A model generated the notes under the pieces. That model saw nothing but the letters and a program-made list of their open reading frames with translations. It did not search any database and was not told the origin of the DNA. Below are positions 51,883 to 56,618 of a stretch of 64,000 nucleotides of DNA, one piece after another. A program made the position numbers and the translations under genes. Source of the stretch: [Eubacterium] cellulosolvens LD2006 (GTDB taxonomy: Bacteria; Bacillota; Clostridia; Lachnospirales; Lachnospiraceae); the NCBI RefSeq assembly GCF_000621585.1, contig NZ_KK211309.1:1-64000 (forward strand), in the 5' to 3' direction. Position 1 is the first letter of the stretch; every line of letters starts with the position of its first letter.

Positions 51883-54258
51883 ATGAAAAATAAAAAAAAT
51901 TTTAAAAAGAAGTTCTCGAAAGTGATGGCAGTGATTTTATCTGCCGGAATGATGATGCCCCTGACTGCAGCGACAGGGAAGGCCTATGCGGATAATCCGC
52001 CGGAGACGGATGGCGGTTATATTGCGATGGAAGGCGGCTGGGATGACGGCGTACCCGCTGCGGCGGAAGACGTAGATCTTTTGGACGCGGATGTGATACA
52101 TCTTGAAGAGGAGGAGCTGCCGGAAGATACTGTGGTGCAGGAGGTCGCGTCCGGAATGCTTTCATTCCCTTCCGGGGATTCGGAGGAAACGTCGCCGGTC
52201 ATGGTTGAAGAAGAGGCGTTATACGGAAACGGATCGGATGGAACGGACGAATCTGAAGGGGGCGGTGAACCGCAGGCGTTTGTCACGGAAGAAGAGATTT
52301 CCGGCGATTCTGCGCTCACGGCGTGGCCGTTCACAGCATCGCAGGCGGCGTCGGACACAAGCTGTTCCCTGCTGAACCGCTTCCCAGAGATCCGGGATCA
52401 GGAGTATTACAATACCTGCTGGTCATTCACGGCGATCGGCATGATGGAAATGAGCATGATCAGTCAGGGGAAAGCCCGGACCGGTGTGGATTACAGTGAG
52501 CTGGCGCTTGCATACAGTTCCTACCACATTCCGTCCGATCCATTCGGAGGTCTGGCCGGGGACGGAAACGGACTGACAAACGGAAAGGACTTTCTGACCG
52601 GCGGAGGCAACATGGTGATCGCGCTTCCGACACTCTTTACGTGGGCCGGAGCGGTGAGTGAAAAAGATGTTCCGTACAGTACTGCTTCCGGCGTACAGCA
52701 GTCCGGGCTTTCCGAAAGCGTGCAGCGAAAGGATCAGGCGCATATCACGGAACTGAGGCTCTTTAATCTTCAGGAGAATCCCAATGCTGTCAAGAAATGG
52801 ATCCGAGAAAACGGAGCGGCAAGTTTTACGTTGTATAAGCCGTCGGATTACCAGTCCTATTACAACGGGGCGCATAACGCGTATTATTGCAACACGGCAT
52901 TTCCTGCGAACCATGCAGTCGATGTTGTCGGCTGGGATGACGCGTTTCCGGCAAAGGCCTTCGCCAATACACACAACCGGAACGGTGCTCCGACGAATGG
53001 AGCCTGGCTTGTGAGAAACAGCTACGGAAAGAATAAGTACCATTTTTATGGTTATTTCTGGATTTCCTATGCAGACGCAACGATCGGAGATACGGTTTAC
53101 GGTATCAGGGCTTCCGAAGCGAATAATTATGAAAATAACTATCAGTATGACGGAGCCGGTTATTCCGTGAATATTGATGCAGTAGAGGCGGCTAATATTT
53201 TTAAAGCACAGGCCGGCAGCAGTGGTGAGATCCTTCGGGCAGTAGCGGTCGGAGTGGCCGGGGAAAGGAAAAACGCCCATAGCGACTATACGGTTCGGAT
53301 CTACAGGAATCTGAGCAATCTGTCCGATCCGACAAGCGGTCAGCTCTGTGAGAGTGCGACGACATCAGGTGACACGGACCAGTCCGGTGTGTATACGGTG
53401 AAACTCGCGAATCCGGTGCAGCTGAATAAGGGCGAGTATTATTCCGTTGTCGTCGAAGTATCCGGCAGCAGACCGAAAGTTATGGCGGAGTCGTCTTATG
53501 ACAGAGGGGAGCTGAAGATCACGGCTTCCATGAAACAGCAGCAGAGTTTTGTAAAAGTAAGAAACAGTTCCGAATGGGTTGATTTGAAGGGCGGATGGAA
53601 ATCCATCTACAATTATTCCGACGGAGGCAACCTTCGGATCAAGGCGTTCACTGACAAGGTTGCTGCATCGAACAATCCGTCCAATGGAAGCGGACAGCAG
53701 AGCGGATCGAATACCGCTGTGACGCCGGATCCAAACAAATCCGAGGCAAACCAGTCGAATACAACAAATTCCAATCCGGCGAAAACGACTGACAAAACCC
53801 CGTCCGGAAAGTCCGGGGATGTGGATGTTTCGTCAGTTAAGGACAGTGTGAAGATGTACCGGCTGTATAATCGTGGAAACAAAGAACATTTCTACACAGC
53901 GAGTGCGCATGAGAGGTCAGTGCTTGTTTCGCTTGGTTGGAATTATGAGGGGATCGGCTGGTATGCTCCGGCGACCGGAGATCCGGTATATCGTTTGTAT
54001 AACAAATATCTGAGGGATCACCATTATACAATGAGCAGGACGGAGAAGGATTATCTCGTATCTGTCGGTTGGAACTATGAAGGAGTCGGCTGGTATTCCG
54101 ATCCGGAACGGGAAGTGCCTCTGTACCGTCAGTATAATCCGTATCTGACCTCAGGTTCGCATAACTACACGACCAGCAGTTACGAGGCGTCGGTTCTGAT
54201 CTCCCGGGGCTGGATCGATGAAAAGATCGGGTGGTATGGCGTAAAAGCTGAAAGATGA
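51883..54258 (+). CDS. Secreted papain-like (C1A) protease with DUF5648 repeats
   Basis: This 791-residue protein has a signal peptide (about 1-36), an acidic propeptide-like region to about 160, and a C1A peptidase domain with Cys179 in YYNTCWSF, His344 in NHAVDVVGWDD and Asn379 in VRNSYG. A beta-rich lectin-like domain (about 420-600) follows, as in clostridial C1A surface proteases. A Ser/Asn/Pro linker leads to three DUF5648-type units (650-791: KEHFYTASAHERSVL, DHHYTMSRTEKDYL, SHNYTTSSYEASVL). A TATAAT box at 51699 gives a leader of about 175 nt. RBS AGAAGGACGCAGGAG. Confidence 0.9.
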   Translation: MKNKKNFKKKFSKVMAVILSAGMMMPLTAATGKAYADNPPETDGGYIAMEGGWDDGVPAAAEDVDLLDADVIHLEEEELPEDTVVQEVASGMLSFPSGDSEETSPVMVEEEALYGNGSDGTDESEGGGEPQAFVTEEEISGDSALTAWPFTASQAASDTSCSLLNRFPEIRDQEYYNTCWSFTAIGMMEMSMISQGKARTGVDYSELALAYSSYHIPSDPFGGLAGDGNGLTNGKDFLTGGGNMVIALPTLFTWAGAVSEKDVPYSTASGVQQSGLSESVQRKDQAHITELRLFNLQENPNAVKKWIRENGAASFTLYKPSDYQSYYNGAHNAYYCNTAFPANHAVDVVGWDDAFPAKAFANTHNRNGAPTNGAWLVRNSYGKNKYHFYGYFWISYADATIGDTVYGIRASEANNYENNYQYDGAGYSVNIDAVEAANIFKAQAGSSGEILRAVAVGVAGERKNAHSDYTVRIYRNLSNLSDPTSGQLCESATTSGDTDQSGVYTVKLANPVQLNKGEYYSVVVEVSGSRPKVMAESSYDRGELKITASMKQQQSFVKVRNSSEWVDLKGGWKSIYNYSDGGNLRIKAFTDKVAASNNPSNGSGQQSGSNTAVTPDPNKSEANQSNTTNSNPAKTTDKTPSGKSGDVDVSSVKDSVKMYRLYNRGNKEHFYTASAHERSVLVSLGWNYEGIGWYAPATGDPVYRLYNKYLRDHHYTMSRTEKDYLVSVGWNYEGVGWYSDPEREVPLYRQYNPYLTSGSHNYTTSSYEASVLISRGWIDEKIGWYGVKAER

Positions 54259-54962: not shown

Positions 54963-55051
54963 ATATATTAAGGGATGGATGTCTGTCATACAGGCTCATG
55001 GCGGAGAGGCTGCCGCAAGAGAGCATTGATACATCGAAATTGAAAAGATAC

Positions 55052-55100
55052 AAAAGCAGGCGGTATGCCCGGGACAAACCGGACGTGCCGCCTGCTTTTG
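55052..55100. terminator. Bidirectional terminator between gtrA and the HPr-LDH gene
   Basis: AAAAGCAGGCGG pairs with CCGCCTGCTTTT, with inner pairing across the loop. T or A runs on both sides serve both converging genes. Confidence 0.88.
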
Positions 55101-55119
55101 TATGATATGCGTGCTCTTT

Positions 55120-56418
55120 TCACTTTACTTCCGCAGGTCCGTAGGAGAGCGACTCATTGTAGTTCCGCGCATTTTCCATCGTGACGGCGGCAATTGCCTG
55201 CAGCGCTTCTCTTGTGAAGAAGGCCTGATGAGAGGTGAGGATGAGATTCGGGAACATCATCAGACGGGCAACGGTATCGTCGCTCAGATAGTCGTCCGAG
55301 TGATCGGTGTACACATTTTCGTTTTCGCCTTCATACACATCGAGTGCGACGGCATGGAATTTTCCGTCTTTGAGTCCCTGAATCAGAGCTTCCACGTCGA
55401 CGAGAGGGCCGCGTGATGTGTTGACAAGCATGACATTGTCTTTCATCTGGGCAATTGCTGCCGCGTCAATCAGATGATGAGTTCCGCCTTCACCCATGAT
55501 CAACGGTGCGTGCAGGGAGATGAGGTCGGATTTCCGGAGAAGTTCATCCTTCGATACGTAGGTGAGAAGTCCTTCTTCTTCGAGGGATTTGTTCGGGAAG
55601 GCATCCCAGCCGAGAACCGTCATGCCGTAACCTTTGCAGATTCTCGCCATGCAGACGCCGATGCGTCCGGTACCCATAATACCGGCCACTTTGTTGTGAA
55701 GGTCAATGCCGAGAAGTCCGCTGAGGGCGAAATTGTTATCCCGCACTTTGTTGTAAGCCTTCGGGATTCTGCGGTTTGCGGCCTGGATGATGGTCATGGC
55801 GTGTTCCGCAACTGCGTACGGAGAGTAGGCGGGTACGCGGAGAACGGTCATGCCGTATTCCTTTGCCGCCTTGAGATCTACGTTGTTGAAACCTGCGCAG
55901 CGGAGAAGAATCAGATTCACGCCGCATTTGTGCAGGATTTCAATGACGGAGCGGGGGGCTTCATCATTTACAAAGATGCAGACCGCTTCGAAACCGTCGG
56001 CGAGGTGAGCGGTCTCCTTTGTGAGACGGCTCTCAAAGTAGTGGATATCCACGTTGTAGGCTCCGACACCGCGATCCTTGCTTAGTTCGCTGAAGAAGAT
56101 GCGGTCGTAATCCTTTGTTCCGAAGAAGGCGATTTTCAGGACGTCCACCTTCTTGTTTTTCGGGGCCATATCAGAGAGCACGCTGAGAATGCCTGCCATG
56201 GCCTCTTCTTCATCCGGACCGTCAACTTCGATATGAAGAACGGATCCTTTGATGGCGTCCAGTTTAAGGATTTGAAGAACATTTTTGCCGGAGGCGGTCG
56301 CGTCGTCGAGACGGATCGTCACCTGACTGCTGTAATTGGTACATGCCTGCGCGAGCATAGCGGCCGGTCGGGCATGGATTCCAAGGGGGTTGAGTACAGT
56401 ATAGTCGGTAGTTTTCAT
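55120..56418 (-). CDS. HPr domain fused to LdhA-type D-lactate dehydrogenase
   Basis: This 432-residue protein has two domains. Residues 1-90 are an HPr-like PTS phosphocarrier with His15 in GIHARP and Arg17, the EI/EII phosphorylation site. Position 46, the HPr kinase serine of Firmicutes, is Asn (SGKNVL). Residues 96-432 align with E. coli-type LdhA: CIFVNDEAPR, LRCAGFNNVDL, the Rossmann GIMGTGRIG, Arg in NTSRGPLVD, Glu in DVYEGENEN, His in SHQAFFT. It should reduce pyruvate to D-lactate with NADH. The start with GGAAAGGG 8 bases upstream gives the canonical HPr numbering. The fusion suggests that PTS phosphorylation state acts on fermentation. Confidence 0.93.
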   Translation of the reverse strand: MKTTDYTVLNPLGIHARPAAMLAQACTNYSSQVTIRLDDATASGKNVLQILKLDAIKGSVLHIEVDGPDEEEAMAGILSVLSDMAPKNKKVDVLKIAFFGTKDYDRIFFSELSKDRGVGAYNVDIHYFESRLTKETAHLADGFEAVCIFVNDEAPRSVIEILHKCGVNLILLRCAGFNNVDLKAAKEYGMTVLRVPAYSPYAVAEHAMTIIQAANRRIPKAYNKVRDNNFALSGLLGIDLHNKVAGIMGTGRIGVCMARICKGYGMTVLGWDAFPNKSLEEEGLLTYVSKDELLRKSDLISLHAPLIMGEGGTHHLIDAAAIAQMKDNVMLVNTSRGPLVDVEALIQGLKDGKFHAVALDVYEGENENVYTDHSDDYLSDDTVARLMMFPNLILTSHQAFFTREALQAIAAVTMENARNYNESLSYGPAEVK

Positions 56419-56618
56419 AATTATCCCTTTCCTTTGCATATGAATGCGCTGTTTTGGTTTACTTTATATTATGACACAAATAATGCCGGAATTACACATG
56501 AATTTGTTATAAATAAAAAAAACATGATATCATTTGCGGAGTGATGCTGATGAGGGGGATTGCGGCGAGGAAGCTGTGCTCAAGGCAGCGGGGGATAAAA
56601 ACGGGAAGGAGTAAAGAA

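Follow-up and report, generated by a model that had tools for sequence, protein, structure and literature searches.

A conserved fusion of the phosphocarrier HPr with an LdhA-type D-lactate dehydrogenase, a candidate PTS-responsive enzyme

A single reading frame joins HPr to a D-lactate dehydrogenase

The window (the whole stretch of DNA that was analysed, 64,000 nucleotides) contains one uninterrupted minus-strand frame at 55120-56418, stop codon included, which encodes in 432 amino acids an HPr domain connected by a short linker to a full LdhA-type D-lactate dehydrogenase (LDH; Table 1). The initial annotation had described this frame as HPr fused to D-lactate dehydrogenase, and both the single open reading frame and the Pfam domains bear this out. 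At E ≤ 0.001 the only Pfam matches were to HPr and 2-hydroxyacid dehydrogenase domains: PTS-HPr (PF00381) at residues 4-81 (E 1.5e-22; 79.9 bits against a curated cut-off of 23), 2-Hacid_dh_C at residues 210-399 (E 1.3e-44) and 2-Hacid_dh at residues 122-422 (E 3.8e-28), the latter two also above their curated cut-offs. TIGR01003 matched residues 1-81 with 70.8 bits (cut-off 47.9).

Table 1. Features of the fusion gene and its flanks (positions in the window)
Feature	Position	Strand	Basis
HPr-D-lactate dehydrogenase fusion gene, 432 codons plus stop	55120-56418	-	Single ORF; Pfam domains
HPr domain, residues 1-84	56167-56418	-	PF00381, TIGR01003, model secondary structure, PDB sequence matches
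His15 codon, predicted phosphorylation site	56374-56376	-	Sequence; invariant in 58/58 fusions
Asn46 codon, replaces regulatory Ser46	56281-56283	-	Sequence; N48 D5 S3 G1 E1 of 58
Linker, residues 85-93	56140-56166	-	pLDDT drop; low conservation
LdhA-type D-lactate dehydrogenase domain, residues 94-432	55123-56139	-	
Purine-rich leader before ATG, probable ribosome-binding region	56419-56436	-	Read from sequence; inference
Probable intrinsic terminator 3′ of fusion gene, perfect 16-bp inverted repeat with T-rich end	55048-55103	.	By eye

In the predicted structure the N-terminal part has the HPr-like order of strands and helices. The last HPr helix occupies residues 70-82, pLDDT drops to 67 at residues 81-90, and the LDH part begins with a strand at residues 94-99. 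The proposal that the N-terminal 90 residues constitute HPr was thus right in identity, while in the model the domain ends nearer residue 84. His15 and Arg17 were present at the numbers assigned to them, as was Asn46 in place of Ser46. Because the structural matches in most cases span residues 92-432, the HPr part was compared with PDB entries by sequence; 33 were found at E ≤ 1e-5, named HPr, NPr, HPr-related, histidine-containing (phosphocarrier) protein or Crh.

The remainder of the protein matches PF00389/PF02826 and has the full-length fold of a fermentative D-lactate dehydrogenase of the LdhA type. The GxGxxG NAD-binding motif is present as GTGRIG at residues 249-254, and all three predicted catalytic residues were found, as Arg336, Glu363 and His397, positions which we take to be catalytic from the motifs presumed for D-2-hydroxyacid dehydrogenases. 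The Arg/Glu/His residues and the NAD-binding motif are common to the best structural matches, the fermentative D-LDHs of Escherichia coli, Salmonella, Pseudomonas aeruginosa and Fusobacterium nucleatum, which are alike over the whole catalytic part with 45-48% identity. The fusion differs from these enzymes in its N-terminal HPr, and the structural matches listed reach model residue 83 at most. Since 2-hydroxyacid dehydrogenases vary, the enzyme might act on another 2-keto acid, in which case the regulated step would not be pyruvate to D-lactate. Such a specificity appears highly improbable given that its nearest structural neighbours are fermentative D-LDHs along the entire domain; moreover, the best NCBIfam models were VanH and D-LDH, though both were far below their cut-offs.

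The arms of the probable terminator, read by eye, lie at 55048-55063 and 55088-55103. A hairpin scan of this stretch reported only a 5-bp stem (55057-55071), with a regional count of 3 against a shuffle mean of 2.1. Elsewhere in the window, positions 51883-54258 encode a large secreted protein that by eye resembles a papain-like cysteine peptidase and whose C-terminal region carries 'YRLYNxxxxxHFYT' repeats in tandem.

The fusion recurs in three bacterial classes

Genome searches recovered 58 distinct full-length fusions from Lachnospiraceae, Selenomonadaceae (Mitsuokella, Selenomonas) and Erysipelotrichia (Sharpea). The domain pair had been suggested as one to look for across genomes, and named loci with an assigned class place it in the Clostridia, Negativicutes and Erysipelotrichia. 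Cultured carriers include Sharpea azabuensis DSM 18934, Mitsuokella multacida DSM 20544 and Lachnospiraceae NK4A144; further named carriers are Sharpea porci, M. jalaludinii, Bilifractor porci, a Selenomonas bovis metagenome-assembled genome (MAG) and several Lachnospiraceae isolates. It had been envisaged that the fusion might be restricted to one assembly and explained by an assembly join. The many assemblies in which it occurs, cultured strains among them, rule this out.

The total was assembled as follows. A contig scan gave 51 relatives, comprising 45 fusions over residues 1 to 431/432, three loci cut by contig ends (L067, L072, L074) and three without HPr (L073, L075, L076), and a search of relatives gave nine fusions in 61 genomes. 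Merging and de-duplicating both searches yielded 51 distinct proteins, to which a family sample added seven. One of the 45 is L063 (6001-7203, from the S. bovis MAG), counted despite an internal deletion of ~31 residues that removes catalytic His397; either this copy is defective or the assembly is wrong at that point.

The distribution of the fusion is patchy. Within the window's genus it was found in 8 of 16 genomes. An even sample of the family contained it in 13 of 397 genomes, with a close but unfused LDH in four more (E ≤ 1e-120), and in a class sample of 391 genomes only the window's own genome carried it (E ≤ 1e-120).

The phosphotransfer site is invariant and the HPr part is under purifying selection

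Across the 58 fusions the invariant HPr residues are Gly13, His15, Ala16, Arg17, Pro18, Ala20, Leu48, Gly67 and Glu70, so that the check proposed for His15 conservation gave a uniform answer. Position 46 is Asn in 48 proteins, Asp in five, Ser in three (L053, L066, L125), Gly in one and Glu in one. The expected absence of Ser46 therefore holds for 55 of 58, and the corollary that HPr kinase should not act on the domain stands for most members; it does not extend to the three that retain Ser46, and a further six carry Asp or Glu there. Among the catalytic residues of the LDH part, Arg336 and Glu363 were present in 58/58 and His397 in 57/58, L063 being deleted at that position.

Mean pairwise identity among the first 51 fusions was 55% for the HPr part (minimum 32%) and 78% for the LDH part. 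Residues 86-95 were conserved less than either of these parts, with a mean identity of 44%, and the linker is short and nearly constant in length. Selection was estimated by the Nei-Gojobori method in 137 pairs with an LDH dS of 0.05-1.5; for the HPr part 32 of these were dropped owing to a dS that was zero or saturated. The median dN/dS was 0.10 for the LDH part (137 pairs) and 0.13 for the HPr part (105 pairs), with no HPr value reaching 1. The HPr part is under purifying selection. A relic HPr domain is ruled out by these ratios together with the invariant active site.

We then compared the invariant positions with the surface that HPr presents to enzyme I. Among 16 contact positions, which we presume from the E. 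coli complex, 7 were invariant, compared with 6 of 69 other positions (Fisher p 0.002; 51 fusions). This enrichment is equally what an ordinary HPr would show. It does bear on the idea that HPr has become a structural module, aiding solubility or oligomerization, in which phosphorylation is no longer relevant. The faster evolution of the HPr part relative to the LDH part would fit such a role, but the four active-site residues do not vary, enzyme I contact positions are over-represented among the invariant ones, and a Crh-like protein of the same genome offers a contrast in lacking His15; we regard a purely structural role as very unlikely. The Crh-like HPr paralogue in question (L001, on contig C10 of the same assembly) has Glu at the place of His15 but Ser46 within an AKSIM motif, and so shows the opposite His15/Ser46 pattern to the fused HPr.

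Gene context and origin of the fusion

Taking open reading frames of at least 90 amino acids and requiring no same-strand neighbour within 80 bases, 37 of 46 fusion loci were apparently monocistronic, the 46 being those among 51 whose neighbours could be seen on either side. The neighbours, compared by strand and size, vary in both. A PTS operon context was looked for and none was seen, as the loci mostly stand alone and their neighbours differ.

Upstream regions were scanned with Rex and cre consensus sequences that we assume to apply. Rex-like boxes (up to three mismatches) were found before 14 of 51 fusions (2.2 expected in mononucleotide shuffles) and cre-like sites before 4 of 51 (1.1 expected in mononucleotide shuffles). 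Since the window's own fusion gene has neither a Rex-like nor a cre-like site upstream and the consensus sequences are presumed ones, we do not claim control by Rex or CcpA. Rex-like operators with two mismatches to the presumed TTGTTAANNNNTTAACAA precede the fusion in L027, L028, L029, L031, L034, L046, L061 and L065.

LDH trees place the fused proteins in a single clade (support 100/100 with 51 fusions; 100/99 with 29 of 58), and the 51 fused HPrs formed one group in the first HPr tree (99/89). Two genomes of one related Lachnospiraceae genus present a different arrangement, in which a separate HPr gene lies upstream of an unfused D-LDH on the same strand (L126, 1471-2852, and L127, 1468-2859, both minus strand), at a spacing of 80 and 102 bases, respectively. 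Their HPr keeps His15-Ala16-Arg17 and has Cys18 and Gln46. It joins the fused HPrs against standalone HPrs (95/65, unstarred) and in most trees falls inside them rather than beside them, a grouping of fused HPrs only being recovered in 8% of bootstraps. The accompanying LDH falls outside the fused-LDH clade. Two other close unfused LDHs, L128 and L081, had no HPr in their 1.5 kb flanks. In both L126 and L127 the HPr-LDH pair is followed by a same-strand frame that by eye encodes a helix-turn-helix regulator.

A two-gene HPr and LDH arrangement is plausible as the ancestral state, and the simplest reading would be that an HPr gene dedicated to LDH arose first and was joined to it later. Alternatively, fission or separate acquisition may lie behind the two-gene arrangement. 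The Selenomonadaceae fusions nest among those of Lachnospiraceae, which suggests lateral transfer of the fusion. Standalone HPrs of fusion-carrying Lachnospiraceae isolates (L097-L100) form a long branch next to the fused HPrs (97/66).

PTS components and lactate dehydrogenases of carrier genomes

The window's genome encodes one enzyme I, adjoining a canonical ptsH with His15 and Ser46, and one HPr kinase above cut-off. Further HPr matches are L003 and, as a weak fifth, L005 (28.8 bits). The fused HPr might be one more phosphocarrier for the EIIs, with LDH as a passenger or a device for co-expression. Its phosphotransfer residues are kept, and with other HPrs in this genome additional carriers would be normal there; the proposal is nevertheless unlikely, in that a canonical ptsH with Ser46 already stands beside enzyme I, the genes flanking the fusion differ in orientation and length from locus to locus, and the fused LDH parts constitute a single clade kept across three named classes.

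Enzyme I was present in all 20 carriers examined. Within the window's genus it was found in 8/8 carriers and 3/8 non-carriers (p 0.026), an association that is only suggestive because the non-carriers are less complete (67-94%) and the genomes are related. HPr kinase was above cut-off in 18 of 20 carriers and absent from both Mitsuokella genomes, indicating that the fusion does not need HPr kinase.

The constant presence of enzyme I is also relevant to what we see as the main rival to regulation by phosphorylation, namely that HPr docks LDH on enzyme I. Enzyme I releases one pyruvate for each phosphate passed, and PTS-derived pyruvate would then be reduced on the spot, with control by location and not by allostery. 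The conserved enzyme I face of HPr and the short linker of nearly constant length are likewise consistent with tethering. Against this, pyruvate diffuses fast, making any gain doubtful, and the contact of HPr with enzyme I is transient, such that a tethered HPr would still need unloading. Channelling of this kind therefore seems rather unlikely, less so than a role as an additional phosphocarrier.

Among lactate-forming enzymes, Ldh_1_N (the L-lactate/malate dehydrogenase family) had no match in the window's genome, and the other 2-hydroxyacid dehydrogenases were at most 35% identical to the query among the matches listed (3 of 6). On both grounds the fusion looks like the only lactate dehydrogenase of this genome. 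In the same genus, Ldh_1_N was above cut-off in 0/8 carriers and 2/8 non-carriers (G005, G006); one carrier (G008) had a match below cut-off. Of the carriers reached through named loci, 7/11 had an Ldh_1_N protein above cut-off, showing that the fusion is not always the sole LDH.

A proposed PTS sensor within the D-lactate dehydrogenase

That the fused HPr domain is a conserved substrate of enzyme I is well supported by the sequence comparisons. From this we propose that enzyme I phosphorylates His15 and that the phosphorylation state sets LDH activity, the enzyme being active when unphosphorylated, under high sugar influx; we give this an even chance of being correct as a whole, and within it both the effect of phosphorylation on LDH and its direction are inferred. 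Enzyme I, charged by PEP, would phosphorylate His15, and the phosphate would be removed by sugar-specific EIIs, by other HPrs or by back-transfer to enzyme I and pyruvate. The phosphorylation state would alter how HPr seats on the LdhA-type enzyme, which is probably tetrameric, or on its subunit interfaces. LDH would most likely be favoured with HPr unphosphorylated, when sugar influx is fast and PEP:pyruvate low, and restrained with HPr phosphorylated, so that only an abundance of sugar would send surplus pyruvate and NADH into D-lactate. Loss of Ser46 would uncouple the fused HPr from HPr kinase and CcpA, leaving it to report the enzyme I/PEP state only. The HPr domain would thus serve D-LDH as fructose-1,6-bisphosphate (FBP) serves many bacterial L-LDHs. 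Also in favour of this reading are enzyme I in every carrier examined, the lack of Ldh_1_N matches above cut-off in the eight carriers of the genus, and the two-gene counterpart in L126 and L127. The link between PTS and pyruvate reduction suggested in the initial annotation would agree with these results.

Several observations count against a sensor, among them the PTS operon context that was looked for and not seen at the fusion loci and the Ldh_1_N proteins of some carriers. The invariance of His15 is equally expected of a pure phosphocarrier, and three fusions keep Ser46. Additionally, S46D HPr, a phospho-Ser mimic, is phosphorylated more weakly by enzyme I, and Asp or Glu at position 46 in 6/58 fusions could weaken phosphorylation if it acts in the same way.

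Activation in the unphosphorylated state is favoured because dephosphorylated HPr stimulates pyruvate kinase A of Vibrio vulnificus, as described in the cited part of PMC5987630. The same work finds no such stimulation of PykA by HPr in E. coli, so such HPr contacts are not general. A second reason is the allostery of this type of D-LDH: the cited part of PMC4230899 describes the E. coli, P. aeruginosa and F. nucleatum enzymes as allosteric tetramers, with FBP and Mg2+ as activators of the latter two.

Relation to known systems

Comparison with characterized proteins places the fusion beside several families without equating it to any. It has His15, Arg17 and the strand/helix order in common with HPr/NPr phosphocarriers (PF00381), and differs from them in being joined to an oxidoreductase and in having Ser46 replaced in 55/58; the Ser46 site marks the HPr-kinase-controlled subgroup and not the whole HPr family. 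Multiphosphoryl transfer proteins of the FPr/FruB and DhaM types also carry an HPr module in a longer chain (PMC2405797, cited part), where it is joined to EI or EIIA domains, whereas the partner here is a metabolic enzyme; the fusion has HPr with neither EI nor EIIA and does not belong to that group. In V. vulnificus the state of HPr likewise controls an enzyme of the pyruvate node, as far as the cited part of PMC5987630 describes it, but HPr acts there in trans and on the preceding step, while the fusion would act in cis and on the following one. FBP-activated bacterial L-LDH shares the proposed logic, in that lactate forms when glycolytic flux is high (the need for FBP is described in the cited part of PMC4230899), and differs in being an unrelated protein with a small-molecule effector.

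The fusion is real and conserved. Neither domain is new in itself, nor is the principle of HPr control; the domain combination and the cis arrangement appear to be. We found no description of an HPr-LDH fusion in open-access papers, and most subscription journals, outside the search, may hold one. Cases of HPr acting in trans on metabolic enzymes are known, and a conserved fusion would wire the PTS state and a fermentation branch into one polypeptide, providing a clean and genetically simple case. A broader claim, that a cis-acting PTS switch replaces FBP control of D-lactate formation and has spread through Bacillota of the rumen and gut, Sharpea among them, we hold tentatively, at slightly below an even chance.

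Carriers include rumen lactate formers. The D-LDH gene of Sharpea azabuensis was strongly expressed, with transcript levels 12-fold higher in low-methane sheep, according to the cited part of Kamke et al. 2016 (PMC5069950). In the Sharpea genome searched, the fusion (L054) is 69% identical to the query and the next dehydrogenase 33%. As the search of that genome turned up no close relative of the query's LDH part besides L054, the D-LDH transcript described in the cited part of PMC5069950 is probably that of the fusion gene.
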